A DNA stretch of 64,000 nt from Sialis fuliginosa. Its lineage: Eukaryota > Arthropoda > Insecta > Megaloptera > Sialidae. The notes under the pieces were generated by a model. That model was not told the origin of the DNA, made no database searches, and worked only from the letters and a program-made list of their open reading frames with translations. Numbering within the stretch: the first letter of the stretch is position 1; each line of letters opens with the position of its first letter. The stretch lies in the NCBI GenBank assembly GCA_961205875.1, contig OY540812.1:7006001-7070000 (forward strand). Reading direction: 5' to 3'. Below, piece after piece: positions 16,871 to 60,244 of the stretch. The position numbers were made by a program, and so were the translations under genes.

Positions 16871-17015
16871 CAAAAGAGCAATGTTCGGCAAAAGAAGGAT
16901 ATCTTCCTCTGTATGACCTTCTGAGAGATCCGGCCGCCAGATTAAAGGATGCTGAGGAATGGCAGAGACTGTACCATTGTCATTAAATACGACGCTGCCA
17001 TGTTCTAGTATTTCT
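16871..17015 (-). CDS. CD36-family receptor, exon 4 (ectodomain)
   Basis: Reverse-strand exon bounded by a TTTTTTTAG acceptor and a TTG|GTAAGT donor. It is 145 bp: one base completing the split Gln codon from exon 3, then 48 codons. The translation begins EILEHGSVVFNDNGT and ends EEDILLLPNIALL. This matches the conserved CD36 block in which a [V/I]LEH..[V/N]xFNDNGT stretch is followed by HPL.W.P.LSEG and PNIALL. The NGT is a canonical N-glycosylation sequon of the ectodomain. The exon ends on a codon boundary, and the expected continuation was not found in the remaining 16.8 kb, so the next exon is off the window. The identification is secure from the motif order together with the phase match to exon 3. 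Confidence 0.9.
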
Positions 17016-17223: not shown

Positions 17224-17384
17224 TGATAAACATAAGGCCCTACTTCTTGAACACGTAATTTTTCATCACCTCTCATGAAAGCATCTTTGTTTGTAACGTT
17301 GAATAAATATATTTTTACCAACAATTGAACGGGAGGAGCTCTCCATAATTCGAATATTTCCCCTCCTTCAGCGAATATAATTTT
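17224..17384 (-). CDS. CD36-family receptor, exon 3 (ectodomain start)
   Basis: Reverse-strand exon with acceptor TTATTCCACAG and donor GTATGT. It has 161 bp, giving 53 codons plus two bases of a Gln codon finished by exon 4. It encodes KIIFAEGGEIFELWRAPP, then a VKIYLFNVTN stretch and EVGPYVYQ. These are hallmark CD36-family blocks: the FELWR.PP membrane-proximal motif, the [Y/F]FNVTN strand with its NVT glycosylation sequon, and the invariant EVGPYVY. The intron to exon 4 is only 208 bp, in contrast to the very long introns on either side of the cluster. A run upstream of the exon reads through in frame to an ATG, but the acceptor and the family alignment show that this is intron. Confidence 0.92.
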
Positions 17385-17619: not shown

Positions 17620-18094
17620 CAGTGCAACCTCGATATAACAAAACTGAAGGGAAGTAGAAAATATTCGTTATACCAAGTAATTTGTTACCGTGAGGTTTGT
17701 TATATAAAGGTTAGGTTGGTCTACAATTCGTTATAACAAGGTAAGAATGTAGCGATGTCTATTTTTTTCGTTGTAGGATTCTTGTCTACATACTTAATGA
17801 TTTCTCGTTTCTTTGCGACGGTTAAGGAACACCTTTTTTTGTTTTTCAACAATTGCAACTTTAAAACTAGCAACAGTGACAAACAGCAAACAAAACAATA
17901 ATGATTGTATTACGAAAAATTTAAAGTGTCTGAACCTGTCGTAAAATTTATTATAAAGAGGTTGTTGACAAATGTATTCGTAATATAAAGGTATATTTTG
18001 CATTAGCTCTTACGGGCAGTTCTAGAGAATTTCGAAAAATTTGTTAAATCGAGGAAATCGTTTTATTGAGGCTCGTTATATTAAGGTTACACTG
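17620..18094. mobile_element. pogo/Tigger-like MITE with TA target duplication
   Basis: The ends are CAGTGCAACCTCGATATAAC and the inverted GTTATATTAAGGTTACACTG, flanked by TA on both sides (17618-17619, 18095-18096). CAGT ends with TA duplications and a 'CCTCGATATAAC' TIR are typical of insect pogo-like elements. It is 475 bp and has no transposase. It fills about a third of CD36 intron 2. Confidence 0.75.
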
Positions 18095-18949: not shown

Positions 18950-19041
18950 AAGTCTAAATAAAAAGTCGTAAGGATGAGCAAATAATACGAAACATCCAGA
19001 TAGTATTCCTAATAGGCCAAGTAGAAGGTATATAAACGTTC
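18950..19041 (-). CDS. CD36-family receptor, exon 2 (N-terminal transmembrane segment)
   Basis: Reverse-strand exon, 92 bp, with acceptor TTTCTGTTTCAG and donor CTT|GTAAGT. The first two bases complete a split codon, followed by 30 codons. The product runs TFIYLLLGLLGIL, SGCFVLFAHPY and DFLFRL: a hydrophobic span of about 20 residues with a small-residue centre, then the PYDFLF.LK junction that leads into the FELWR block of exon 3. This is the position and character of the N-terminal membrane anchor in CD36 proteins, with the N-terminus facing the cytosol. The exon is too short to stand out as an open frame and was found from splice signals plus phase. Every isoform needs an upstream first exon ending one base into a codon. 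Confidence 0.88.
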
Positions 19042-19293
19042 CTGAAACAGAAAATAACAATTTTAGTTTTTCATAAGTATAATATACTCGTTCAAAAATG
19101 TATAAAATATAATATCAAAATTAATCTTATAACGTCAAATATTATTAGAAAATACAAGCAATAATAATTATCCATGTAAAAAGTAATAACAAATAAAAAA
19201 CCTGTTATTATTAAAAACAACGGTACATAAATAAATAAAAAATATAATAGAAATGCATTCAAAAGTAGAGATTTCAAACTCAAAAACAAAATA

Positions 19294-28579: not shown

Positions 28580-29165
28580 TATCAACAAATAAAAGAATGG
28601 GTAGTATTTAAGCGCGCAATATTTTATATACTTTGAGCATAAATATATTGTAATTGAGCAATAACATTTTGAATTCTGAGCATTATATTAATAATTTTTT
28701 TGAGCACTAACATTTTTCGTGTTGAGCATTAAAATTTTGTTTTGTGCAATAATATTTGCGTTCATTAATATTGTACAACTTTTATTTTTTGGGAAGGGGG
28801 AGGGGGGTGCTCCATTACCCCAGCCCCTCCACGTGTTGATGTGTTAGAATAGACCTAACCTAACCTAACCTAACGAAAACTAACCAACCCAAAACTAATC
28901 AACTCGATTTCGCCCCAATGGACAGTTAATTTGTATTTTATTAGATCATCAACTCGATTTATAAAATATTATATAAATACATGATATTGCTCATTCAGTA
29001 CAAATCTCACCAATCTGATACTCATTTAGCCATTTTAAGTAGCAATTTTTTTTATGCGTCATTTTATTTCTTTAATGAACAAAAAGTATTTTCTTAACGC
29101 TAGTTTATATTAACTATTGCTAAAACACAAAGAATACTGTTCAATATTGTTTACAAATGCTATAA
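28580..29165. mobile_element. dispersed element with (CCTAA)4, copy B, inverted
   Basis: This is the inverse of the element at 11110. It carries (CCTAA)4 at 28854-28873, 'AACTCGATTTCGCCCCAATG' next to it and 'GCGCGCAATATTTTATATAC' at its other end. It has gained a degenerate tandem array at 28632-28760. It is non-coding. Confidence 0.65.
28632..28760 (+). repeat. degenerate ~22-bp tandem repeat, TTGAGCAnTAACATTTTG
   Basis: About six units begin TTGAGCA/CTGAGCA/GTGCAAT, each followed by TAACATTTT-like sequence, with spacing of 20-25 bp. The array is absent from the related element at 11110, so it arose within this copy. Confidence 0.55.
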
Positions 29166-42061: not shown

Positions 42062-42239
42062 TTTTAGGCCACGTTTTGTAATTGAAAATATTTGATATAA
42101 ACGATGCATTCTGGTAGTCTGGATGTGGTTCACTAAGATTGACAGACTCATATACACTATTATGATATCTGTGATTGTCAGTAGAATTTCCAGAAGTATA
42201 TCGAGCCACTCGGCTCCAAATGTTAACTATGTCTTTCAT
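42062..42239 (-). CDS. CD36-family receptor, alternative first coding exon (proximal, 59-residue tail)
   Basis: From an ATG at 42239 the frame is open for 59 codons, MKDIVNIWSRVARYTSG to FNYKTWPK, and meets an AAAA|GTAAGT donor one base into the next codon. That base plus the GA opening exon 2 makes an Arg codon, giving KTWPKR-TFIYLLL, a basic collar directly before the membrane span as expected for a cytosolic N-terminus. The tail is hydrophilic and longer than the roughly 5-15 residues usual in the family. It contains YESV near residue 30, which fits the YxxPhi adaptor-sorting pattern (inference). A weak acceptor 16 bp upstream (GATAG) would need incoming phase 2, so the exon cannot follow the distal first exon as an internal coding exon. 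It is best read as an alternative first exon. No transcript evidence is available. Confidence 0.65.
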
Positions 42240-43076
42240 TTTAATGTTAAATAAACTATCACAAAAACAGTTTTAATTTAAACAAAACACATAAATGTAC
42301 GTAAGTTTAAGATATTTCACTTGTAACCGCAAAACTGTCAACAGTAGATCCTATTCTGAACCCTGCCAGTTCGAAACAGATCAATTCGAATTTCACACTG
42401 ATCATGAGGACGGATTTATCAACAATAAGCACCATATTTAATAGCATCATGTCTTTATTATATTGTTGGGGGACGATGGTGTTTTTTTCACGGCAAACTT
42501 GAATTAGCCAATAGGAGATCGGTGCACGTATGACGTATATCCCCACCTAATCAATGCTTGCAATTTCTCCGATATACGCACCTGTAGAAATGTCTCGTTT
42601 CAAATAGTAACGGTGTAGGAGAGTAGGTAAAATGTCAAGTATATGTTTGTTTAATAACATAACACTTTTTTCTTCAGTTAAACTTTTAAGAGGATTTATA
42701 TGGGTCTAATTTTAAAAATAAAAGTAAAAAGGTTATTTTAGAATGTTGTATATGTATGAGTATACAAATTAAAAAATACATTTTTCTATGAGTTTTTAAC
42801 TATATTTATGTTTAAATATTTGTTTTTAATTATTTTACGATTAATTGCATTCTTAAAGAAAATAAAGGAAGTTGCCACTGTGTCTTCCACAACGGGTTTT
42901 GGATCAACAGAGAAAGAACGTGTGTTTTTTTTAAATTATACGATAATACCTATATAAATTTTTTTTGCGCATGTTAATTTTTTAATATTTATTTGTGTTT
43001 TATGATTCTTCATATATTTGTTATTTTTAAGTACATAACTAATCGTAAGATAAGTAAGCTTCATACGATATAGCGT

Positions 43077-43238
43077 TTATCCAGACTATCGAGCTGATCT
43101 CGGTCTGGTCTCGCTCCAATCAAATATAAATAAACAATAAACAATGAAATCATTCACACTATAGGTATCGCTCAGCTCTCGGTCGAATCACGCTCCGATA
43201 CAGTATTTGACTGGAGCGAGACCAGACCGAAACCGGCC
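43077..43238. mobile_element. short MITE (copy 2), opposite orientation
   Basis: The reverse complement aligns along its whole length with 17411-17575. Shared parts include 'TCTGGTCTCGCTCCAGTCAA', 'GCGATACCTAT' and 'TTCATTGTTTATTG'. It is non-coding. Confidence 0.6.
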
Positions 43239-44447
43239 CGATTCAATTTTTTTTATTTTAAGATTATTTATTTTCTGAAATTTTTGAGGATTTTTTTGTA
43301 AAGTATGGAATGTATTATTTTTCTTTAAAATTTTTTTAACAAATATTTGTTATTTGTTTATTTTTTTCGTCTTTCCATTTTTCCTTGGTTATTACATACA
43401 TGTACCGTGTTTTCGTTACTATTTTATAAACTGCTTTTTCTCAAATCGATTATTTGTCCTTTGTGTTTTAATTTTTTACCTAGTAGTGTTGTAACATGTT
43501 GTTCAGCAATCTTTTGTTTACAATATCTTCAAAATTTCCAGACATTGTTCTATTTTTATTCTTTCCTTTAACAATTTTTTATACCAATATTTTAATCTAA
43601 AAAAATACATGTTTTACTATTAAAGATTAGAGTAGACTGAAACAAATCAGATCAAATAACTTTTGAGGCTATTTTCAATTATTTGTATTTGTTAAACGTG
43701 TCTTATTATCATGTGAATCACTTTCACACTCTCCTAACACATCGAAAACAATCGTTACTAGATCCATATTACGAAATATTTAGTGCTCAACTGCTCACCA
43801 AGGAAATGTCTTGAACGTACAAACTAATTTTATTGCTCACGTAAAAACTTAACATTTTTTTTCAATTTCTATGATCTCTTTAATGGTGATTCGTGTCGTC
43901 CTCAATTTTGGGGCAAATCGAATACTTCCTCTCTGTTAATTCTTTGTTGTAGATTGAGAAATTTCATATTTGCATATTATTTTATTGAATAAAAAAGCCA
44001 AATATGCAAATAAATGCATAATAAAATTGAATAACCAAAGTTGTCTTCATTTACTTTTTTGCCATTAGATAAAAAAATGATCCAATTCACTTGATAATAA
44101 GTGTCTTATTTAATTATATAGATTAAATCTTGTTTGTTTTTTTATTGATTAATTGTTTTTATGGGTAATAACTTATAAGAAAAACATTTTAAAATTAATA
44201 TTCCAACATCGAATCGTGACGACCAGATCGAATTATAATATTTAAAAACAATATCAAAAAAGGTTTGTTAACAACCGCATCAGAGTTATGTTGTTTTAAG
44301 TATACTTATGAACTACAATATTATAACTTATAAAGGGGCGTGCATATCATTATAAGACATATAGCCATTAATATTAACTAAATTTAACACCATACTTTAG
44401 CTAATTTTTCTTGTGTATTATTTAGAGTCGAAAAGTGTAATAATTAA

Positions 44448-44702
44448 TTAGAAGAAGTTATTATTTATGGACATGTATTTTATATTAATTCTATTAATGG
44501 TACCTTGTTTTGGATAATGCTGTCTTTTTTTGGCCTTTTTCTGCAGATTACTACTACTGATTATTATTTTATTAAAAATTTCGTTATCCTGACATAAACT
44601 ATTTCCTTTTATCAGTGTTTTTCTTTTATCATAATCATCACACTCAATAGTGTTAGAAAAAGGCTTATTATTGTCAGTATTTGAACCTTTCAAATGCACC
44701 AT
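44448..44702 (-). CDS. unrecognised 84-residue hydrophilic open frame
   Basis: A minus-strand frame from an ATG reads MVHLKGSNTDNN, then a PFSNTIECDDYDKR stretch, a run of three Ser, and a basic QKKAKKRQ patch before a stop. It has no membrane span or recognised motif. Its amino-acid composition (Asn, Lys, Ser, Asp) is what A+T-rich DNA tends to give. It is somewhat longer than expected by chance and its codons are not low-complexity, so it is kept as a weak candidate. It may be an exon of an unknown gene or nothing. Confidence 0.15.
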   Translation of the reverse strand: MVHLKGSNTDNNKPFSNTIECDDYDKRKTLIKGNSLCQDNEIFNKIIISSSNLQKKAKKRQHYPKQGTINRINIKYMSINNNFF

Positions 44703-44823
44703 TCTATTATCTGAATTCTAAATGCCTTTACGACTCGTAACTAAGGATACTCGCAGGACGATTTTGAGCAGTGATAATTGACACATATAAGCTCACACAT
44801 TTCCGTTGAGAGATAATCACCGC

Positions 44824-45227
44824 GGGACTTGAACCTGAACTCCGAAAAACTTCGTATTTTTCAATAACTTGAACCCGAATCGAACCGTTATATTTCAAAG
44901 TCAACGAACCTGAACCTTTTCATGGATAATCGGTAACCATATATTTTTAAAAGGTTCAATAAATTATTTTTAATATTTTTCTCCAATGATTTTTAAAAGA
45001 GATTCTAAAATTAACTAACTGAAAATCTGTTTGAATTTTATGGTATGATGTGAGTTATCAAGTCCACTATACTAAAATTTACATATTTTTACTTTCTTTT
45101 TTAATTCTATAATTGAATTACAACAGTTTTTGAACACAGATAGTTTGCACCATGTTGAACCCGAACCAAATTTTATATTTGAACCCGAACCGAACCCGAA
45201 CTATAAATAAATTCCGGTTCAAGTCCC
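44824..45227. mobile_element. TIR element with GGGACTTGAACC ends and GAACCC sub-repeats
   Basis: GGGACTTGAACCTGAACTCCG at the left pairs with CCGGTTCAAGTCCC at the right. Inside each end are irregular GAACCCGAACC repeats, for example GAACCCGAACCGAACCCGAA near 45181. It is 404 bp and non-coding. Confidence 0.6.
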
Positions 45228-46310
45228 AAGAATAACCACAAAAATCTTTTAATCGACACTAACCATATTTAAAAGGTTTGTAACTTATAGCACATATGTA
45301 TATATAGTTCTACTAAACACCTAACACTGTTTTTTTTACCGGCAAATAAGTTATCACAATCACTGTTATCATTGATATATTTATCTTCAAACAGTGATGT
45401 ATTTATCTTGGTTTAATATCGATATACAATGCAAACAATTATTATTTCCTTAAGAATATATATGTAATTATAACCAAAATTGCAGATAACATATGTAGGT
45501 ATGTAGTTTATATGTACACAGGGTGACTACATATATGCAAATGAATGAAGTTTAATAAAATTGTAACCAAATCCAAAACATCATAAGAAACTAGTCGCAT
45601 TAAATTACCAAGTAAACAAGAATTTGCCGTGAAACTTTTATATCTTCATTGCCCTCGACCCAAACATACCTAATGTATTATACCGTGTATTGCTTCTAAC
45701 TCACACAAGTATCATAATTCTCTTGCATTCAGTCAAAAACACAGCGCAGTCGAGCGCAGATTATAATTGTCTCTGACAATTAGACACCGGCTTTATGTAA
45801 ATGATATATTTACACTAGAAGAAAATCGATCACGTTTTTATGGAAATCATAAAATATTCCTTGAAAATGTTTGATTACTGGGAAGTTAAGAATAGTTATT
45901 GCTCATTAAAAAATTAGATTTGATCTTCTATCTATGGAACGTCTACTGTATGTAAGGAAGTTTTATAAATTTAATAATAAATAATATAAATTTTCATAAA
46001 AATAAAAACAAGGCGAATAAAACCGCGGAACAACCGTTATTTATTACATATTTGTTCAGTAAGCTCTGTTCATATTTTGATATAATAGGAAATATACAGT
46101 GACGGACTAAGGAAGATTGTACGCGGGGTGGAATGTTAGTTATGCATTCCCCTCCCTCCAAAAAATGTCGTGCAATTGAATAACATTTTCTTTGTAAGTT
46201 CAATTTTAACATCCCTTAGAAATTACTTTTACGCCCTTCTGCAGTTTGTGTAGACCTTTTTTTAGTTTTAGATCGCCCCTCTCGTTCACTGGAAATATAT
46301 AGTAACTAGC

Positions 46311-46670
46311 TGTGCCCGCGGCTTCGCTCGCGTGGACTACGGAATTATTGTTTAGGATTTTTGAAAAATATTATTGAATTATTTTAGATCTTTTTATTCT
46401 ACACAATTATTTACTACATTATATTATTCAATATTAAATGGTTTAAGTAGCGTATTACAAAAGAGCGCGCTAGCGTCAAACTTTTTTCCGACTTGATTTA
46501 CTATTATTGTCACTGCTTATTCCTTATGTTACCTAACGTAACAAAATATATACTAAAACCCGAGCAAATAACATATTTATATGAATTTATTTATATGAAT
46601 TATTCAAATGATAAACGCATTACCGGACAGACAGACAGACGTTATAAATATTAATATTTATTATATGACA
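46311..46670. mobile_element. short retroelement with TGTGCCCGCGGCTTCGCTCG start
   Basis: It starts 'TAGCTGTGCCCGCGGCTTCG', continues A/T-rich, and ends 'GGACAGACAGACAGACGTTA'. These are hallmarks of a widespread insect SINE/RTE-tail class. It lies about 110 bp upstream of the condensin-like microexon. Confidence 0.5.
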
Positions 46671-46780
46671 AAACACGAAAAATAAGGGGTTCCTTTTCTC
46701 ATACTTGTTACGAAATCTCTAAACATTTATAAATGATTTTATATAAACAAAAAATATAATCACTCTTAAATTTTTTACAG

Positions 46781-46802
46781 GATGCTGACAATTACACTAA
46801 TT
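46781..46802 (+). CDS. possible 22-bp microexon of a condensin-II G2-like gene or fragment
   Basis: A good acceptor (TTAAATTTTTTACAG) and a GTAAGT donor enclose 22 bp. If it is read so that the donor falls on a codon boundary, it encodes MLTITLI, which continues without a stop into the exon at 46884. The intron between them is only 81 bp, a normal small insect intron. In the presumed homologue the residues just before the LK.LPI block would sit here. Both the microexon and the reading frame are inferred, and no upstream exon was found. Confidence 0.28.
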
Positions 46803-46883
46803 GTAAGTAAATGTTATTAAATATATTTTATGATCTTGATAAACATATTAAAACCGTTAGGATTGTTCTGTTTTTTATTTAAG

Positions 46884-47046
46884 AATCTTAAAATTTTGCC
46901 AATCAAAAATGTTTGCAAGGAGCGACCAAAAAACCAGATTTTAAATGAAACCATTCTTCCCAATTTAGAAAATACAATTGCTCGTACAAGAATAACGTTC
47001 GTCGATTTATTAACCTTTATGAGACATACAAACAATACCAAAATTG
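46884..47046 (+). CDS. exon resembling the HEAT-repeat region of condensin-II subunit G2 (possibly a fragment)
   Basis: Bounded by a TGTTTTTTATTTAAG acceptor and a G|GTATGT donor, this 163-bp stretch is open for 54 codons plus one base. It begins NLKILPIKNV, continues ILNETILPNLENT, and ends with ARTRITFVDLLTFMRH and NTKI. From memory of the family, condensin-II G2 has LPI, then HPLLEQLLPAL, then VR[V/I]AFVDxLLxxKxxRxxK in the same order and spacing. G2 is a HEAT-repeat subunit that helps compact mitotic chromosomes. The match is recalled rather than searched, and four or so residues are missing before the R-[IV]-x-FVD block. The following exon (expected to begin near FW.I.P) was not seen, so this may be a duplicated fragment. 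It lies antisense within the CD36-family intron. Confidence 0.35.
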
Positions 47047-48435
47047 GTATGTGATTTTTTATTTTATTTAACTTTATTGTGGGGAATCCCTAATTGAATA
47101 CCTTACGGCTTACGCGATAGAAACTCCAAAGCATTTAAATAAAAATTGGCCAAATGACGTTAATGGTATAAAGGTTATTTTGTATTATCTACTTTATTAT
47201 CTTTGAATAAAACACAAACTTAATGTACAATAAGTCTACACAAATCGATTAAAAAACATACGTCAGTCCAGTTTGTGACGTTAGAAGAAACTCCGTACGA
47301 AATCTGGTTTTTATCTCTTGCTAGGTGTATTCAGAATGATGTCATTATAACATTTAAAACATGTGTATTGTTTACAAATTTATAAAGTGAATCCGTTTAA
47401 ATACATGTATGTGTGTTATTGTAATTCTGTTAATAATATGTTATTTATATATAAATTTAAATAATTCAGTATAATTATTTATTTCGTTTAGTATACGAAC
47501 AGCATCTAAATAGATTAATTATTGTTATTGCATAAGATGAGATTTCAATAATAAATTATTACTGACATTTATGCAAGTGGGCTGGGAGTTAAACAGCCTT
47601 CTTTAAGGGGTTATATCTAATGTATTAAATTAATTAATTTTTGATAATTTTTTTATTAGCTTAAATGATATACAAACATCTTAAAAATGATATTTAAAAG
47701 AATTATAAGCAGAAAAAAAAAAATTTTTAGAGCTCAAGTGTCTCTGAACGAACGAAACAATCTAGATGGTGAAAAATAAACGATGATGAGTATATGGTAA
47801 TATAAAGGGGCACTGTAATTCAGTCTCAAGCCAAAACAGAAGTAAAATAAGCAACCGAAAACCGCCAAACCGACATAGTCTCGAAAAAAAATTGGATCTA
47901 ACGTCGACGTTTGCATGTAGTAAAACAGTTTTCAAACTTTAAACTCATTTTTATCGAAACCACGTTTTTTTTAAAACTGCGGAAAACGTATTTTAGCTAT
48001 TTTTCATCCGACTGTAACCTTGGATAGATTTTACATCGAAGCATACACGATTTTTACGATTGGTTAACAATTACGATTTTTATGAACAATTTAAGGTCGT
48101 TTTTTTCGTCAAAAACGCGATTTTTTGTTCAAAGTGATGCAAAATTTGCAAATATCGATATTTATTAATAATCGTGTGTACTTCGATAGGAAAACTCATG
48201 TAAATAAAACGAGAATTTTTTTTTTTGCCCTGGATGTTGATCCATGAAAGTTCTTATTTCCGCACTGAAGCACATGTATAACAAAAAAGGTGCACTCAGT
48301 GCTTAAGTCATCATTTTGTTTTATATTTCAGTAAAAAAAAAATTGTATGTTTTGAGACATGTACAATAAACCCTCCAAATTTCATTTGATTGTTTTTTTT
48401 ATTGTTTTAAAAAAATCTTAAAAAAGTATCATTTT

Positions 48436-48665
48436 CCAATGTGAAATTTAATTCTCTCTGATATGCTGCTGTAAGAAATTAAAATAAATAAATTTTTCAA
48501 CGAGATATTCGCGCGTAAGTAAAAAAGTAATTTTTCCCATGTTAATCAAATGGAAAAAAGACTCGGTTTACGCCGTCCACAGGTTTGATCTATGAGTCTA
48601 AAATTTTGGGACAGTTAATTTTTGATCCAAAGCTAAAACATAGGCCTGCGGGACCGAAAACTTCA
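48436..48665. mobile_element. partial copy of the TTAGGGTG foldback MITE
   Basis: It shares 'GAGATATTCGCGCGTAAGTA', 'CGCCGTCCACAGGTTTGATC' and 'AACATAGGCCTGCGGGACCG' with the element at 60792. The terminal TTAGGGTG ends are not present. Confidence 0.65.
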
Positions 48666-50368
48666 GTGAAGGTATAGAAAGTAAAAACTATTAGTATGTA
48701 GAATTTACATTTCCATTCTAGGTGAATGTGCATTATTTTACTTGATTTGCAGTTAACTGTTTTATAGTTCAACCACGATAACGCAAAGTAAAATAGTGGG
48801 AATTCCCTATTTTGTCAACAATAATATTAGTATTCGACAAGATCTGAATAAGATATAAATACTCCTTTTAATAAATAACATTATGTATTTTTCCTATTGT
48901 TTGATTATTACGAATTATGCAAAAAGTTGTCCTTGCAAATAAATCAATCATAATCGATTATTCCTTTGAAATTATTGGATTAATTTTCTCATAACTAAAG
49001 TATATACAGTGTAAACGGAAAATTTGATATTTTTTTATAAATTATTTATAATTATTTTAACCCTATTAACCTTCATGTACTTTAAGATTATTATTGCACT
49101 ATAAATAATATTATAATCATTTCAAATGAATCATTATAAACAGTTTTTCATATTACATATATTATTGTAACATTGTTGTAATGTACTTTAGCTTAACGAA
49201 TAAACAATTATAACTATAACTTAAATACATACAATATTAAATTTTAAATTCTCATAAATTGATACGCACTTACCTATCTAATATTAATTATAGTTATTGG
49301 TAGTACAAACAATGGGAAAATCTATTGTAATAAAACTGTAATCTTTTTCTTAACATCTCTTCAGTTGTATATGCAAATCAAAATATATCTACAAATAAAA
49401 AATACAATTGTAAATTGTTAAATAAATAAAACCAAGGTTAGTGATTTCAACGTAAGATCAAGACACATGTTGATAACTTTTATTTGATATTCATAATGAG
49501 AACTAAATCTGCACACAACAGTTTCTGGGTTTTATTGTCGTGTTGAAATCTCTTGTAGTGTAGGTTACATGCATCACTGTCAGGTGACGGAGATGAGACA
49601 AAATTAAATTTTGACTGAGACATATCAACTTTATTTTATTTATTTTTTTAAAAGTTTAAAAATAACAAATATATATCGTTGTCTACAAATTTCCCTGTTT
49701 AGCCAATATACTGATTTACTTGTTACTTTTTGGGCACAAGCTAAGGGGGCAAGCCCCCCTCCCATGTCACTTCCTGGGTACGCCCATGAATTTTAACTAA
49801 TCTTTTTCTAATATAAGTCTCAACGTTCCAGCATAATTACGTTATACAAATATGGTTAGAAGTTAAATTAATTAACTTCACTTTTTGCCTCTTTTTTTAC
49901 TTTTGGTACCAAACACTATTCATTTCGGTATCTTGTATTTGAATTCATATAAATTGCTTTCACGGCTGATTTGCGCAGTTGTTGCTTTAGCATTTATTCA
50001 AAACATGAGTGTATAAAAAACTACAAATAAAATAAATAACAAAGAGACATGATAAATTGTAAAGTCTAACTGCATTATTATTACAAAGTTTTGTTCTGTC
50101 ATCAATCAAATTCACTAAAACTTCAATCTACAAAAAATCGATGCAGAGTAATATATGCATTGATGTTGTTAAGTATTAATGACGTAGGTATATATTATAA
50201 TTCATACAATCTAACCTTTTAACCTGTACCACAGAATATTAATAATCACCTGCACATCTTCAGTTTTTAAATTCTTATGCCTCAAACTTATTGTATATTT
50301 GTTGCAGGCCGCAAGTTGGCCAGTCCTGCTGTACAAATTAAACGAATTTCGAAACTATTTTGGCTTAA

Positions 50369-50775
50369 GTTGGGCATGTGAGTAATTTTTTAACTTTTGT
50401 ATGTATTCGAGTTGATATTTTTATGAAAAGTTGAAATTTTTTTATGAAAATTCTATGAAAAGTAAAATACAGCCATGAGATTTAACTACAACATTTTGAG
50501 TTTTAGTTTTCATTAAAAATATGTTTTTTTAAATAGAAAATAATGTAAAAAGTTGAAATTTTCAAACCGCAGGTCTGTATCTTAAACCGTTCTCGAGGTA
50601 TGGCCTTTCAAATTTTCAGTTTTATCAAAATTTTGGAAAAAAATAGCTGTAACTTTTGAACGCGTGGTTGAAATTGATTTTAATTGACGAATATGAAATC
50701 ATCGTGTCAAAATCTATATAATAACATGTAAAATACTTAAATTGACTACGTAACCTTATCATGAGCGTGCCCAAC
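50369..50775. mobile_element. probable TIR element with GTTGGGCATG ends
   Basis: GTTGGGCATGTGAG at 50369 and CATGAGCGTGCCCAAC ending at 50775 are imperfect inverted repeats around a non-coding A/T-rich interior. A hAT-end-like 'GGCCGCAAGTTGGCCAGTCC' lies just outside at about 50308, so boundaries are uncertain. Confidence 0.4.
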
Positions 50776-51041
50776 ACGCACTTGACCTTTTATTTTAAAC
50801 TAAAAATCAACACTATATTTAAATTTAAAAAAAACTGACGTAGTAATAGACAATGACGTTTTTGATTGCCTTGTAATATATCTAATAAAAAGAAAATAGT
50901 TAGTCATTGGTATGCATATTTCTGAAAATTCGCATGTATTTTTTCTGGTTATAAAAGAAACCTATTTGTCATAAAAATATATAAAATCAAAAATTATAGG
51001 CATGATTTTTTATAACACAGCTACACAAAAAAAGCGCGAAG

Positions 51042-51299
51042 CCAAAAAAGCGACCTATATACATAGCATTGTAGTACAGGTCGAGTATAGTCGAAATCCA
51101 AATTTTTCGAATTTTCTGCTTACCATTTTTTTTAATTTGAGCATGAATTTTGGGCTTAGATTGAATTTTTCCAAAAAAGCGACCTATATACATAGTATTG
51201 TAGTATAGGTCGAGTGTAGTCGAAATCCAAATTTTTGGAATTTTCTGCTTACCATTTTTTTTAATTTAAGCATGAATTTTGGGCTTAGGTTGAATTTTT
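51042..51299. repeat. two-copy tandem duplication, period 129 bp
   Basis: CCAAAAAAGCGACCTATATA starts at 51042 and again at 51171. The two 129-bp units differ at only a handful of positions. A 13-G run follows at 51309-51321. Open frames over both strands here are caused by the duplication. Confidence 0.85.
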
Positions 51300-52723
51300 C
51301 CAAAAAAAGGGGGGGGGGGGGCAAAAAATATTTATAATTATAAATGTATTTAACATTGCATGCATACTTCTATGTTTACACATTTTCTTAATGTATTGAC
51401 TGAAAATAATAAATTAACTGCAAATATTTCAGATCAGCACTTTCTTATAGAGAAGGTTAAGGTTGATAAGTTGCTTATACAATATACATTATTATACATT
51501 TGTACGGTACATACTAGTAATAAAAACGTGTTTTAGGGCATGCACGTACATATAGTATTTATGTTTTACAAATTTAAAAAAACAAGTTTATTGTTAATGT
51601 CTGTTATGTTATGTCATGTTGATCCTAGTATTGGCAACGCAAGGACATAAGAAATTTATAATTACATATTTTTAAATAAATACAATTGGTTATAATGAAA
51701 CGTGGATATAGGTAGGACCGGATTTCGACCTAAGCCCGTTATTTCTAGAGGCCCGCATTTTCGAGCAGACTTCGACCTAGGCAGTCTAGGGCCCGTTATT
51801 TACAGAGGCCTGCATTTTCAAAAGTGGAAGTAAAAAAACCCTTCATATTAATGTTGGCATTTATTTAATTATTGTAAAAAAATCCAAAATAACTGGATTT
51901 TTTACCGGAGCCTGCACTGGAAATCTTGTCTAGGGCCTTATTTTCCATAGTCCCCCCCTAGATTTCGGTTGTGTAAATCAAGCTTTAAAACAATACAAAA
52001 CAATCAATCATGTAGTTTCAAAAAAAAAAAAAAACGTGAAAAACTAATCGACCTTGAGATTCAAAAATAGTCAAATTTTCTATTCAGATATTTACTTTTT
52101 TACACAGAGTCAATTTATTATATTGTGTTACTTGGGTCATTCAGATTAACAAGTTAAAAATAAACTTTTTGTATGACCGAACAATAGAAAAATATTCCAA
52201 AAAATGAATGCTATGTCTTTTCTAAGAAATATTTTTATTTGTTTTATCCCCGTTTACTTGAAACTATGTTTAGTATTCATCACATTGTTTTTAGTGTTTT
52301 CATTTTAACCACTTCCTTATGTAGCAATGAAAGTTTTCCTTAATTAAAAATTGAACATTTTTTTTTACAAAAATTACACAACATAATTTTCATACTTCAA
52401 TCTCAGAATAAGTTATTTAGAATTCGAAGAAAAAACGAAATTCTTTAAAATTTTCTGATTTATTCTCGATTATCCCCTTTCAATTTTATTGATATCATGT
52501 ACAGTACCGGATAACATTCCACCCTTTTTAGTCCGCCACTGTCTGCTCTAATTGCTCCATGGTAGCTACGCCACTATCCCCTATATATCATCTGTAATAT
52601 GCTTAAAATATTAATAAAAATTAAATCAAACTTTGTAGGGTAGACTAAGGAAAGTTATTTCCCGGGCAGAATGTTAGTAATCCCCCACCCTCCCAGTGGC
52701 AAGTTATGAAAAATTTAAAAGAC

Positions 52724-54254
52724 AAAGGCTGTAGCCGGGTAAGCATGCAAAACATGCCTTTACATGGATTTGGCTGATTATTTTTTTGGAAGTCACATTC
52801 TATTAAACATTCAACCTGACCAAATATTAGCTTCCAAAAATTTATAGTTTTCGAAAAAAAATTTTTTTTTGATTTTCAAAAAAAAATTTTTTTTTGATAA
52901 TCTGTCAGTCGAATTTGATGGTGCTTGAAATATATTATAGAGGTACTTATGACTCATCAGAGGTAATTTTATTATGATTCTCTGTACATAATAAACCAGA
53001 AAAAAAAATTAATAAAATTTAAAAAATCAAAAAAGACCATGTTGTCTTCGGAGGGCAATCACAATTTTTTTATATATTATACCTTGTATGTACCCAAACA
53101 ACATATCAAAATCCCAAGTTGATACAAAGGGTATAACATACTTGTATAAATTCGCATGCGGTCGTATCAGAGTGGCGCGAGCGTGGCGCGGGCGAGTTCA
53201 AGTGTCTTAATACTTTTAAAATATCTCTAATTTGTTGCTAAACAGGACTAGGCTAACCCAGAGGCATATCGAAAATTTGACGGGGCCCATAGTCTGACAA
53301 AAACAAAATATAGAGGCCGTAGCCGGGAATATATGGGAACTGCTCCATTGAATTAATTTTACAATTTTTTTTCTCATAGATTGCTTTTTAAGTAAAATTA
53401 AATCGCCCTAAATGTCTGTGCTTCAATATATTCATTTTTGCTCAGATCATTTTTAGAAAAAATAAATAAATCTTGTCTATAGTTTTTAATGGAAGAAGAT
53501 TCGCTAGTTCACAGCGGAAATGTGATTTGTTACTACTAAAGTCGATTATAAACATTTATAAGCGATTTGGGGCGATTTTTTGTTACTTAAAAAGCAACCT
53601 ATAAGAAAAAAAATTGTAAAATTAATTCAATGGAGCAGTTCCCATATATTCCCGGCTACGGCCTCTATATTTTGTTTTTGTCAGACTATGGGCCCCGTCA
53701 AATTTTCGATATGCTTCTGGGTTAGCCCAGTCCTGTTTAGCAACAAATTAGAGATATTTTAAAAGTATTAAGACACTTGAACTCGCCCGCGCCACGCTCG
53801 CGCCACTCTGATACGACCGCATGCGAATTTATACGAGTATGTTATACCCTTTGTATCAATTTGGGATTTTGATATGTTGTTTGGGTATATACAAGGTATA
53901 ATATATAAAAAAATTGTGATTGCCCTCCGAAGACAACATGGTCTTTTTTGATTTTTTAAATTTTATTAATTTTTTTTCCTGGTTTATTATGTACAGAGAA
54001 TCATAATAAAATTACCTCTGATGAGTCATGAGTACCTCTATAATATATTTTAAGCACCATCAAATTCGACTGACAGATTATCAAAAAAAAATTTTTTTTT
54101 GAAAATCAAAAAAAATTTTTTTTTCGAAAATTATAAATTTTTGGAAGCTAATATTTGGTCAGATTGAATGTTTAATAGAATGTGACTTCCAAAAAAATAA
54201 TCAGCCAAATCCATGTAAAGGCATGTTTTGCATGCTTACCCGGCTACAGCCTTT
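52724..54254. repeat. 1.5-kb near-perfect inverted repeat (hairpin 1)
   Basis: The left arm 52724-53413 and right arm 53565-54254 are each about 690 bp and complementary almost base for base. They start AAAGGCTGTAGCCGGGTAAG and end with its inverse. The spacer is about 151 bp. No target duplication was found at the borders. The arms include 'GGCCGTAGCCGGGAATATA' and a short run of alternating A and T blocks. Mismatches are few, for example CATACTTG against CATACTCG, so the inversion is recent or kept similar by conversion. Its transcript would form a very long double-stranded RNA. Confidence 0.85.
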
Positions 54255-54278
54255 TACCATATCATTACAAAACATTTA

Positions 54279-55232
54279 TATACAGGATGATTCAGCAATG
54301 TCATGCCAAACTTTAACAGTACATCGAGAAAAATATTTTAAGCAAAAAACATTATATAAACATGTGTCCGAAAATTTGTCATGAGGGGGCTACAGCTTTC
54401 CAAAGATTTTACTCAAAATTAGTTTTTATTTAATATCTTGAGAACCCATTGTGTTATAGTTATGAAATTTGATACAGGGTTTAGTATTAATAAGTGTTAT
54501 CTATATCCAGTATCAACCAAAAGTAATTTTGACCAGGGTTGTATGGGCCCAGGAGGCCCGTCGATTTTTATCCAGTATTTTTTGTTCTTCAATTTTTTCC
54601 TGACTTAAAAATTTGAAAAAGACTGCATGAGACAAAATACACAAAAATATACTTTGCTCATTTATCATAGGATAAACCGTTTACGAGCAATATCGATGCA
54701 AAAGAAAGCATGCAGAATTTTACTTATTTTTTATCATAGAACAAGAATATAAAACTATTTTTTGTAATTTGAAGCATCCGTATTAAGTAAAATTCTGCAT
54801 CCTTTCTTTTGCATCCATATATATCGTAAACGGTTTATCCTATGATAAATGAGTAAAGTATATTTTTGTGTATTTTGTGCCATACAATCTTATTCAAATG
54901 TCTAATTCAGGAAAAAATTAAAGAACAAAAAAATACTAGATAAAAATCGATGGGCCCACTGGCCCCATACAGCCCTGATCTAAATTATAATTGTTCAATA
55001 CTGGAAATCGATAACACTTATTAATACTAAACCCTGTATCAAATTTCATAATTTTAGCACAATGGGGTCTCCAGATATTAAATAAAAACTATTTTTGAAT
55101 AAAATCTTTGGAGGGCTGTAGCCCCCTTACGAAAAATTTCCGAACACATGTTCATATAATGTTTTTTGCTTAAAATATGTCTCTTAATTTACTGTTCAAG
55201 TTTGGCACGACAGCACTGAATCACCCTGTATA
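54279..55232. mobile_element. 0.95-kb foldback element (hairpin 2)
   Basis: TATACAGGATGATTCAGCAA and the mirrored TGAATCACCCTGTATA form the ends. The arms (54279-54728 and 54782-55232) are complementary over about 450 bp around a 53-bp loop, more diverged than hairpin 1. It starts 25 bp after hairpin 1. A half-copy lies at 16018-16318. It is non-coding. Confidence 0.8.
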
Positions 55233-56329
55233 ACGAAACGTTAACTAATAAATACATGATACATTTATTCAGACGCTAAGGAAATCAAAAGTTCTACAAT
55301 AAGCGGTAGCTAACATGATTGGACTAAACGACAGGCAGATTCATATTAACACAATTTTCACTGACGTAGTACATCTATCTAATTCATATCGTTTTGGAAT
55401 TAAATGTAATTTTTAAATTATCAGGTTAGTTTTTCTAAAAATGTGTATTAAATCATTATCGACATTAGGAAATTAAAAAAACTAATATTCATAATACAAA
55501 TGTGAGTCTTATTTCTTACAAATTTTAGAGAGTATGTAAAAACGATTGCCAGTTTTTTAACTTGGAGTATCGCATATTACTATCTTTATTTTGTGGGCTA
55601 ACCTAGTGCCTGTGTGAATCGTACCGTCTAATCCCCACCTACCACTGCAATCTTAAATGAAACAGACTATAGAACAGTTGTCATTATTGATTGTTCAACG
55701 CCATCTCTACAAAATAAACTTAACCGAGAAAATATAAAAAAATAATGACTTTGAAATTGATAACAAATATTATATATTGTGATGTAAACATTGCATTCAT
55801 TAATAATCGAATTTCATAATATAATACATATATTTATATTTTATAATGTACGTAAAGAAAACGAAACTTGAATTACATCCCTATATTTGAATATAATAAT
55901 TTAGGCAATTCGATAACACATCATACCAGACGCAATATTGTTATAAAAATTATAACTTTAAAATCAGTATTAGATGGAACCATTAATTTTTTTAAATACA
56001 TTCAAATTCTCCGTAAAACCACTTTTATGAGACCTTTTTTTAATAACCGTATCTAAGGTCAATTGGGAAAAGTTTAATTACATATACGTAAGTAAATATA
56101 TATTTTTTATTTTTTGTTAGTTTATTTATAAATTATTTTAGCTATAAAACCTGTATATTTAATTGGATGATATTTATTATTTCAATCGTTCAAAAGTTTT
56201 TTTATGAATAATATTTTTATTTATAATCAAGAAATATGATCATTGATAAAAATTTGTATTAAGAAAAATTAAATTGCTATATTAATTTTATAAATTATCT
56301 ATAATCTGTTATGCCAAGTATGGCGCATC

Positions 56330-57070
56330 GCACACGTACGGTACGGTTTAAAACCGTGCATACGAACCTGACGCGGATGAAATGCATCGGATTGACTCGT
56401 CCAGTTAAAAACCTAATCAAGGAACTTTAAGGCGAACTTAACATGCTTTTGCTATGGTCTCCGCACAATTACGGTTTGTATGCACGGTTTCAAACGAAAA
56501 CTAGCTATAGTTATGACTTTCATTTGTTATAATTGGAGAGAAGATTGGTAAAATGGACAATATATCAGTATTTTATCCGGGATTGATAATAATGATGTCA
56601 AAAAATCAATTAAATTCATTTTTAATCCAATTTCAGAAATACATTAAATTATCATTCTCTACGACCTAACGTTTTTTTCTTTTTTTTACTTGCGACAGTA
56701 AAAAAACAATAATTAATATTATATATATTAAATATAATCATACCTTTTTATTTTTTTTAAAAACAAAACGAAAACTAACTCGGAGACAATTTCACACCCA
56801 CAATAGGCTGCTCGCGTACACGGTAATAGAATAAAACAACGTGTAAATGTGTGTCTGCTATTAGAATCGCGGCGCCTACTGTCGTCTGGTGTCGGCCGAA
56901 CCGGGGAATCCCACGCCGGCACCAACCGGCGTAATTGTGAATCGGCGTAAATCGAACAGGCGCAAAACGACGTTTACCTGTATTTTAAAACCGTATGCAT
57001 GAGGAGCTTAACAGGTTCCCTGATCCGGTAACCGCGTCAGGGAACCTGATGCGAAAACCGGACGTGTGAG
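56330..57070. mobile_element. TIR element with CGCACACGTACGG ends and a G+C-rich core
   Basis: The left CGCACACGTACGGTACGGTT and 'GAACCTGACGCGGATGAAAT' pair with the right 'GGGAACCTGATGCGAAAACC' and 'GGACGTGTGAG'. The interior at about 56780-56990 is far more G+C-rich than anything around it. The minus-strand frame of 65 codons there shows no known domain. Confidence 0.6.
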
Positions 57071-57505
57071 AAACAATAATTTTGTATTAACAAAAAATCT
57101 ATGAATATAAATGAGAATGTTTATTTAGACATCATTTTTGTGTTACTAATAATCATAAAAATAATCATTCATTTAGAGTCCAGGTTTTGTGAAGTATTAT
57201 TAGATAAAAAAAAAAGTGATGCAGTGTAACAAAAGGGGGAGGGGGGTTAAAAATGTGTGAATTTTATATTATTTTATATTCATTTTTTGTTTTTGTTGCT
57301 GACGTGTTCCATATCATTATTATTATATGATTTAATTTTTTATTTTCCAATAAAAATATGAAACGACATTCAATTTTTACTTCCATGTTCTGAAAGAAAT
57401 GGAAGTATTGTAATACCATCGAAAAATCGTGTCCGAGAAAATGACAAATTCTCATTGTACTAACTTCAAAACGTAAAGAAAAGTTAATTTCCGCATGGCG
57501 GCTGT

Positions 57506-57552
57506 GTGTGTCTGTGTGTCCGTGTGTCCGTGTGGCTGTGTGTCTGTGTGTC
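57506..57552. repeat. TGTGTGTC-type microsatellite
   Basis: Interrupted TGTGTG(T/G)C(T/C) units run here. They lead into a repeat-like tail extending to about 57900, and they cause the 111-residue frame on the minus strand. Confidence 0.7.
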
Positions 57553-58475
57553 AGGATGTAGATTTTTTTTCGTTCACGATAACTACTGTAAAAATGCACC
57601 GACCTAAATTATTTTTAGGGAAAATGTTTGTCTCAGTGAGTACTCCAGACCTATTGATTTTGGTGCTAATCGGATTAGAGGTTTTGGAAATATTCGAAAT
57701 TTTGTAACTTTTTTCGTCTAAAAAGTGAACATTGCCAGTATTATCTCACTAATTTTGATAAGATTTGGTACATTTACAGTTTAATTGAATCTAAGGGACA
57801 TTTATTATTTGTACGTGTCCAAACAGCCATTAAAGGGGTGAAAAACACACTTAAAATTTGAATTTTAAATACTAATTAATACGTCATTAATTTATGTTGC
57901 CTTGGAAACAAATGCAACTAAATTCAGATTGCCAAATTAGTTGTTCTACGAATGTGTATTATGTTTTGGACATTATATATTTATATACAAATGGCAATAA
58001 CTGCTGTAACCGTCGTAAGTATATATATTTTTTTATGTATTACGAAATTACGATATATGTATATTCATAGTAATAGTAGGTTATATAAATAAAATATTTT
58101 AAAAAAAATTCATATTTAAAAATTATTTAAAAAGATAGAAAGAACATGGAAGTCATGTATGGTTCTCCATACCGATATTTAATAAAACTACACCTCACAA
58201 ATACAACTTCAAACTTTGAACAATATACACAAATATATTTATATTTACAGTAATGTACACCAAACAAATAATTTTATCGCAAATTAATGTTGAAAGTAAA
58301 TTAATTTAATTTTTTTTTCGGTACGTGCATTGTTGTTATAAAATTATCTGACTATAAAATTAGTTTTAAACATTTTTTTTTCTTGGTCATTATAAATAAC
58401 TATTTATCAATTTACACGTCTATACAGAATTCCAATATTAAAAGAATTAATATTTAAACAAAAATATTAACTTAC

Positions 58476-58542
58476 CATTTTCACTTGATCTTTTCACAAT
58501 TCTTTGACAATAAAACACAACTTTATCAATAAATATCTTCAT
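58476..58542 (-). CDS. CD36-family receptor, alternative first coding exon (distal, 22-residue tail)
   Basis: An ATG at 58542 opens 22 codons, MKIFIDKVVFYCQRIVKRSS then EN, followed by one base and a G|GTAAGTT donor. That base plus GA from exon 2 gives Gly, so the joined protein reads SENG-TFIYLLLG. The tail length and the basic QRIVKR stretch before the membrane span suit a CD36 N-terminus. The exon may begin at 58571, where TATGTTTTTTGTATTAAG is a fair acceptor for a non-coding exon farther upstream. Splicing to exon 2 would remove an intron of about 39.4 kb. The phase agreement with exon 2 is the main support. Similarity at this divergent end of the family cannot be judged by eye. Confidence 0.6.
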
Positions 58543-60244
58543 TTTTGATTAAACAATCCCTAAACGAAGTTCTTAATACAAAAAACATAAAATAAATAAA
58601 GGTTCTCAAAGCTTCACAACACTTTCTTAAATGTCAACTGTACATTTCACAAATATTAATTACTCCAACTACAGAAAAATGTCTCACTAATCACCTTATT
58701 TAATTAAACATACATGAACAAATTTAATTTTAAAAGAGATTACTGACTTATGCATTTATGTAGCAGAGAGCAACTATTAATAAAGTTTATCAATTCATAT
58801 TTTCTATATGTAAAAATAACGGATACGGCTTGCACAGACAAAGTTTAATCTAATTACATAATGTATCCATAATACACATTAATTAATTTATATTTAAAAT
58901 GAAAAATAAATTAATCATATTTCAATTGAACTGGAGTTGGAATATTTTGATAAAACAATGTAATTTAATATTTATTTTATTCACTTCTTATTAGATCCGT
59001 TTGTTTATGATTTTTATACAGGGTGTCTTCAGATGTAAGATAAAAATTGTTTGAAGATATACAAGAAAAAAAAATTATAGAAATATGTGCAATGTGCATA
59101 GATGTAAATACATATGTACTGACTGAAGCAAAAATAGTGACTGACTGCTTTTATCTTTTTCAAAATGAATATAGTATTAATTTATCATACTAGTACGTAA
59201 TTTGTTTGATTTTTTGATAATTTGTAAGTAATCTTTTATTTCGTCATATTTATTTAGGTGAAAAAATACGCCAATAATATTTTTTATTCACTTTATCATA
59301 TTTTTCTCTAAAACAAAATAAGCTACTGGCACCAGTTTTGGGTAGTACCCCAGTGTTGGACACTTGTTTAATTATATACATACTGAATCATTATAGATAC
59401 TTAACTGTAAAACAGCTTAATTTGATGACAATCGGTCAATGGGTGTCAAAATGGTGGACATTTAAACTAATTATTAGTGTAATCTATTTATTTATGATTA
59501 TATTATCATAGCATCTGCTGTTTTGAATTTTACGATTTTTTATTTTAAAACTTTTGTGTCGTAGTACTTATCATTTTGTAATCATATCACTGAGTACCCA
59601 TTACTAGTTTTACTTTGTCCATTACTGCAGAAAAAACATAAACAAAATAAAAGGTTATAATTTAAAAAAAGAAACTATCTTTATATGCTGATAAATCGAT
59701 ATTTTATTATTTTTTTAATTATTTTGAATCAATTTTTACAGACTACTCTTTGAAACATTATGTAAAAAAATTGTAATAAATCATTTTTAGTGGTCAACTT
59801 TAAATATTCGATTGAACTTTTCTAGGTTTGTTTAGTTAATTCAATGCATTTTTTAATAATAAAATAATAACACAACCTAATTAATTAAGTAACAACAATA
59901 TAACACACGAATTCTACAATAATTTTTTTATGAATTAAAAATAACTATCAAAATTATACAAACTTACAATACATACATTATAAAAGTAAAAATCTTATAC
60001 TTGCATTATAATTTTAGGTTCGGCGTTTTTCTAACATGCACTATTTAAAAAACTATACAAGAACTTATGAAAAAATACCATATCAACGAACAAATTAACA
60101 TTTTACATATAATATACAAAAATACACATTTGAATTATTTTTTTTATTAATGCACAAACACAATATATAAATTTTATAATTTTTTTATAAAACAAAATTT
60201 AATACACGAAATATCAACTACGTACTACAACAAAATAATTTTAC

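Follow-up and report, generated by a model that had tools for sequence, protein, structure and literature searches.

Vertebrate members of the CD36 family have short tails. LIMP-2/SCARB2 and the insect class B scavenger receptors have a common layout in which two membrane spans surround one ectodomain, and the receptor described here shares the same full-length PF01130 domain with them, LIMP-2 being its best relative of solved structure. As far as the accessible parts of the two accounts go, inclusion or skipping of exon 12 of mouse Scarb1, which gives SR-BI or SR-BII, changes the C-terminal domain and affects lipid handling (PMC9771820), and human CD36 possesses five alternative first exons, located between 44.7 and 8.5 kb ahead of the start of translation (PMC1475603). 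The subject of the present analysis is a 64,000-nucleotide stretch of Sialis fuliginosa DNA (the window, C4:7006001-7070000 in a searched genome of 392 Mb and 20 contigs), which holds on its minus strand a CD36-family receptor gene with two candidate first exons. Our best explanation, to which we assign as a whole a probability of about 0.6, is that the inner N-terminal tail would be encoded on an exon of its own, with a very long phase-1 intron between it and the first membrane span. As the main coding first exon we see the proximal one (42239-42062), which would be transcribed from a nearby promoter and supply a 59-residue tail; the distal segment (58542-58476) would, at roughly even odds, be the starting exon of transcripts from a second promoter further upstream. 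If used with its own ATG, the distal exon would give this receptor a shorter, basic tail of 22 residues, and the choice of promoter would by itself decide between the tails.

The body of the receptor gene runs leftwards from 19041 past the window edge and comprises eight exons, three in the window and five to the left of it, as far as C4:7001575. All splice sites of the gene are GT-AG, with GTAAAT and GTATGT among the donors, and the frame is open until the stop. Joined to the proximal first exon, the body gives a protein of 590 residues, of which residues 66-516 match PF01130 over positions 5-461 of the 463-position profile with 474.9 bits (cut-off 26.5), which bears out the assignment to the CD36 family made in an earlier note on this DNA. 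Among relatives of solved structure LIMP-2 scores best (3.3e-59), followed by CD36/platelet glycoprotein 4 (1.7e-50). The first membrane span was computed in exon 2 (hydropathy 2.48), and the second, in the last exon, was recognised by eye only. By its sequence the gene is thus identified as an insect CD36/LIMP2-type scavenger receptor gene. An insect origin agrees with the gene content (CD36 family, and cytochrome P450 with 108 matches in the genome), with the 27% G+C of the window and with the many TTAGG repeats: four copies of this unit in a row have 7097 matches in the assembly (overlapping ones counted), and the listed sites on contig C1 are scattered along the contig.

Exon 2 begins at 19041, after ...TTTCAG, with a codon's second and third bases and directly at the first membrane span. 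Its acceptor scores 9.97 when left out of the model, which is rank 5 among the 1804 AGs of the intron. Because the exon holds no Met, and because reading its frame back into the intron hits a stop at 19117 and no ATG, a coding first exon that ends one base into a codon is required; this phase requirement was the strongest part of the earlier argument, and it holds. A translation start inside exon 2, or by read-through into it, was rejected on the same grounds.

Two ATG-started segments on the minus strand had been proposed as this first exon, and their ends, donors and phase were confirmed exactly, as were the junctions KTWPK-R-TFIYLLL (proximal) and SSEN-G-TFIYLLL (distal). Both joined frames stay open through all eight body exons to the stop. 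Basic residues ahead of the span, also claimed for both joined proteins, are indeed found in each, those of the distal form standing behind SSENG. The proximal tail of 59 residues is tyrosine-rich and without cysteine; the candidate distal tail of 22 residues is basic and has one cysteine. By eye, YxxPhi-type motifs occur in the proximal tail (YESV) and in the common C-terminal tail (YLKV), and they were given no weight: with five tyrosines, a match by chance is likely on a rough reckoning. In the genome search, which skipped very common words, the proximal exon and the distal exon each returned the self match only, and the idea that either is a repeat or a duplicate was rejected on this ground.

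The two segments differ in how they compare with chance. The stretch tested was 19042-64000 (45 kb), with 300 simulated third-order Markov introns as the null. Nine ATG-opened phase-1 frames ending at GTAAGT are present in the real intron (59, 22, 22, 11, 9, 7, 2, 1 and 1 codons), against a mean of 2.2 in the simulated ones. A candidate of at least 59 codons, the length of the proximal exon, arose in 2% of the simulated introns, a figure that is optimistic because the real intron holds more GTAAGT candidates than the simulation; scaled by the ratio of candidates it would perhaps be ~8%. A combined scan covered both strands, three phases and every frame running from an ATG to a donor at least as strong as the weakest of this gene (n = 121), with a donor model that mixes the gene's own seven donors with a general consensus. 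The training set of the codon model, 2256 codons, was drawn from the genome's P450 and CD36 exons; 50 of these codons come from an exon of this same gene (training locus L004), despite the labelling of the model as one that excludes it. The proximal exon is ranked first of the 121 with a score of 16.5, and the next candidate in its strand and phase reaches 10.5. Its codon score is 0.097 per codon vs 0.101 for the gene body and is matched by 4 of 150 stop-free null segments; the null set includes upstream DNA with real genes and is for that reason conservative. In frame and codon use the proximal exon is better than chance and the distal exon is not.

Several results weigh against the pair of coding first exons, or against one member of it. 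The distal exon is only rank 63 of 121 in the combined scan, where its frame score is negative, and rank 12 of the 19 candidates in its own strand and phase. Its codon score, likewise negative, is matched by 445 of the 595 null segments that start with ATG and by 1761 of the 2584 that are stop-free. ATGs lie upstream of its start, and an out-of-frame one at 58588 opens a frame across that start. For the proximal exon, 4 of 44 ATG-started null segments match the codon score, and a scan for maximal coding segments that ignores donors finds six others in 19042-64000 that beat it, five of them on the plus strand and the sixth (42546-42316) on the minus strand close upstream of the exon. An open frame of 79 codons at this place (42546-42310) scores 14.8 in that scan vs 11.9 for the exon and may be just G+C-rich promoter DNA. 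These rival segments are already taken into account by the combined scan, which includes donors. Scans of genome_contigs and viral_contigs, with no eukaryote collection among them, found no orthologs. Alternative coding first exons would have to be open, phase-compatible and equipped with a good donor, which both are, and each would have to do better than chance, which is true of the proximal exon (rank 1) and false for the distal one (rank 63). Of the earlier claim of two alternative tails, the proximal part is well supported, and the distal part finds no backing from frame or codon use.

Other signs favor the distal segment. The stretch 58701-58476 carries 46 G vs 12 C on the minus strand and is the most G-skewed stretch of 226 bp in the intron, 1 of 4474 overlapping windows of that length reaching this value. 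The skew starts ~160 bases ahead of the distal ATG and fades within ~75 bases past the donor, a pattern suggestive of a 5′ leader followed by a short coding exon. We take it as suggestive only: the other exons of the receptor gene have no G skew, a further point against the distal exon that leaves the skew no proven mark of an exon, and the stretch, first found with 300-base windows, came to notice only once the distal segment was known as a candidate. The distal donor is among the highest-scoring of the combined scan (8.3, against 5.5 for the proximal one), and the start context CAAAAATG is good by the insect rule. To the right of the window, an exon of a DEG/ENaC channel gene of the pickpocket type (PF00858), divergent from the receptor gene, is found at L010:2652-2816 (window-equivalent 66652); the distal segment lies between it and the receptor body, and could be the 5′ end of the receptor gene. 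On its ATG, perfect GTAAGT donor, good start context and skewed, leader-like surroundings, the distal exon is possible, and with it the pair of tails; that it is a coding first exon we consider, from these sequence signals, a little short of an even bet.

Whether both segments can lie in one transcript depends on the acceptors available to the proximal exon. Six AGs were scored between 42400 and the proximal ATG, and the best, with exon base 42255, is out of phase for the distal start and scores 1.73, rank 380 of the 1804 intron AGs. Of 14 known acceptors in the gene and its paralogs, 13 score 5.1–11.8, the remaining one, that of the true exon at 17384, having only 1.41. In-phase AGs upstream of the proximal ATG (five among those listed to 42600) meet a stop; inside the exon, four AGs keep the frame and leave it open, but their scores are −2.8 to −8.7. 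The earlier statement that the sole acceptor of the proximal exon is out of phase is therefore wrong to the letter, given these further AGs, and right in effect, as those upstream meet a stop and those inside the exon score poorly. One longer tail made by splicing the distal segment onto the proximal one could use only the very poor AGs inside the exon and was rejected. With no good acceptor among those scored, the proximal exon most likely stands first in its transcript and, judged from the sequence evidence, is most likely a real coding exon.

The competing accounts turn mainly on the distal segment. That both promoters and both exons are real, so that one receptor would be made with two unrelated N-terminal cytoplasmic tails from promoters 16 kb apart and differ in nothing else, is suggested by the two in-frame junctions, by the GTAAGT donor on each exon and by the lack of any good scored acceptor through which the proximal exon could follow the distal one; with neither codon score nor rank speaking for distal coding, we hold this tentatively, the odds being somewhat against it. 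One competitor reduces the gene to a single protein: the proximal exon alone would serve as coding first exon, and the distal frame would be open by chance. It draws on the middling rank of the distal segment, on the 37% of simulated introns that contain a GTAAGT candidate in phase 1 with 22 codons or more, and on the further 22-codon GTAAGT candidate of the real intron at 34621-34555. Chance alone would yet have to place the distal frame in the most skewed stretch of the intron, give it a better start context than that of the 34621 candidate and put it where the 5′ end of the gene could be expected, and we regard this account, too, as possible against the odds. The same intron holds a tandem repeat (51042-51307, two copies of 129 bases) that makes a 23-codon phase-1 candidate exon with the donor GTAAGC. 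Alternative promoters could also serve a single protein if the distal segment were a non-coding leader spliced just before the proximal ATG, a layout for which human CD36 sets a precedent in the available part of its description (PMC1475603) and for which the AG before base 42255, shortly upstream of the ATG at 42239, is suitably placed; that acceptor is weak, yet no weaker than the one used at 17384, and we consider such a leader improbable.

Two further accounts dispense with the proximal exon and are very unlikely. A distal segment that is the true coding first exon, with the proximal one spurious, would profit from the stronger donor and the leader-like skew, but it would leave the first-ranked of 121 candidates without a role. 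Just as improbable is a coding first exon in some other segment with a weaker donor: the GTAAAT and GTATGT donors used by the gene admit other candidates, 19 in the fitting strand and phase, but the next best of them stays well below the proximal score. A nested gene as the source of the proximal exon was rejected after a Pfam scan of 10 of the 84 open frames of at least 60 codons right of 16000, whose only matches were a CENP-B fragment below the threshold and a weak one to MA3. In the paralog at C2:22004127 (the only one of six paralog loci inspected to give a readable first-span exon) the start codon and the first span are on one exon; the paralogs do not decide the question of the first exon. 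We thus retain the reading that gives the proximal exon the main role as coding first exon, with the distal segment perhaps belonging to a second promoter; both promoters, translation from the distal ATG and a possible difference between the tails in trafficking are our inferences. The coordinates are collected in the table.

Table. Exons and putative leaders of the CD36-family receptor gene (window positions unless given by contig).
Feature	Position	Strand	Basis
Proximal first exon (most likely), coding part, 59 codons + 1 base (178 nt)	42062..42239	minus	donor AAA/GTAAGT, phase 1
Putative 5′ leader of proximal exon (start site not located)	42240..42400	minus	no good acceptor before ATG
Distal candidate first exon, coding part, MKIFIDKVVFYCQRIVKRSSEN + 1 base (22 codons, 67 nt)	58476..58542	minus	donor ATG/GTAAGT
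Putative 5′ leader of distal exon, G-over-C-skewed stretch	58543..58701	minus	
Exon 2, first membrane span, TFIYLLLGLLGILSGCFVLFAHPYDFLFRL	18950..19041	minus	acceptor score, upstream stop, no Met
Exon 3, ectodomain	17224..17384	minus	CD36 family match C4:7023223-7023402; splice sites
Exon 4, ectodomain	16871..17015	minus	CD36 family match C4:7022844-7023020
Five later exons	C4:7005972 to 7001575, left of window	minus	

The intron and its surroundings contain further elements. A hairpin repeat at 52724-54254 consists of two 690-nt arms that are 98% complementary, with 151 nt between them; since its place is between the two candidate first exons, it would be present only in transcripts that start at the distal promoter. 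The arm has at least 40 full-length matches in the genome at 97–100%, both arms in the window included, a lower bound as scoring covered 40 of 1312 candidates. The long first intron also has, at 28853-28898, a tandem unit of 15 bases, ACCTAACCAAAACTA. In the next intron, between exons 2 and 3, a minus-strand fragment (17724-17909) is like the N-terminus of a CENP-B/pogo-type transposase (E 0.0017, below the Pfam cut-off). Similar pieces on L011 and L012 resemble fatty acyl-CoA reductases, and the one on L012 matches PF07993.

Unlike the LIMP-2/SCARB2 class, the receptor described here would have a long inner tail at each end, the N-terminal one on its own exon. Should the proximal tail be the only real one, the locus would amount to an ordinary receptor gene whose first intron is long. 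If both are used, promoter choice would set the cell location of one receptor for lipid or debris with binding unchanged. The alternative first exons of human CD36 are presented, in the part of the account available, as untranslated, with the translation start in exon 3 (PMC1475603), whereas the candidates here would be coding; in the open-licence literature, as far as its accessible text goes, no paper describing a CD36-family gene with alternative coding first exons was found. For insect Emp and nematode SCAV-2, the accessible passages map function to the C-terminal tail or merely call the tails short, and given this focus the N-terminal tail would be new ground. Tail switching as such is already known in the CD36 family at the C-terminal end, and an N-terminal version is a variant of that idea. 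Like SR-BI/SR-BII, as far as that system is described in the available part of its source, the two-tail proposal combines one receptor body with two alternative tails; in the mouse gene the C-terminal tail is changed by skipping of an internal exon, whereas here a candidate N-terminal tail, known from sequence alone, would be changed by the choice of first exon. The locus accordingly falls outside the SR-BI/SR-BII type and, if the proposal is true, would be its N-terminal counterpart, enabled by a tail exon that is split from the first membrane span.

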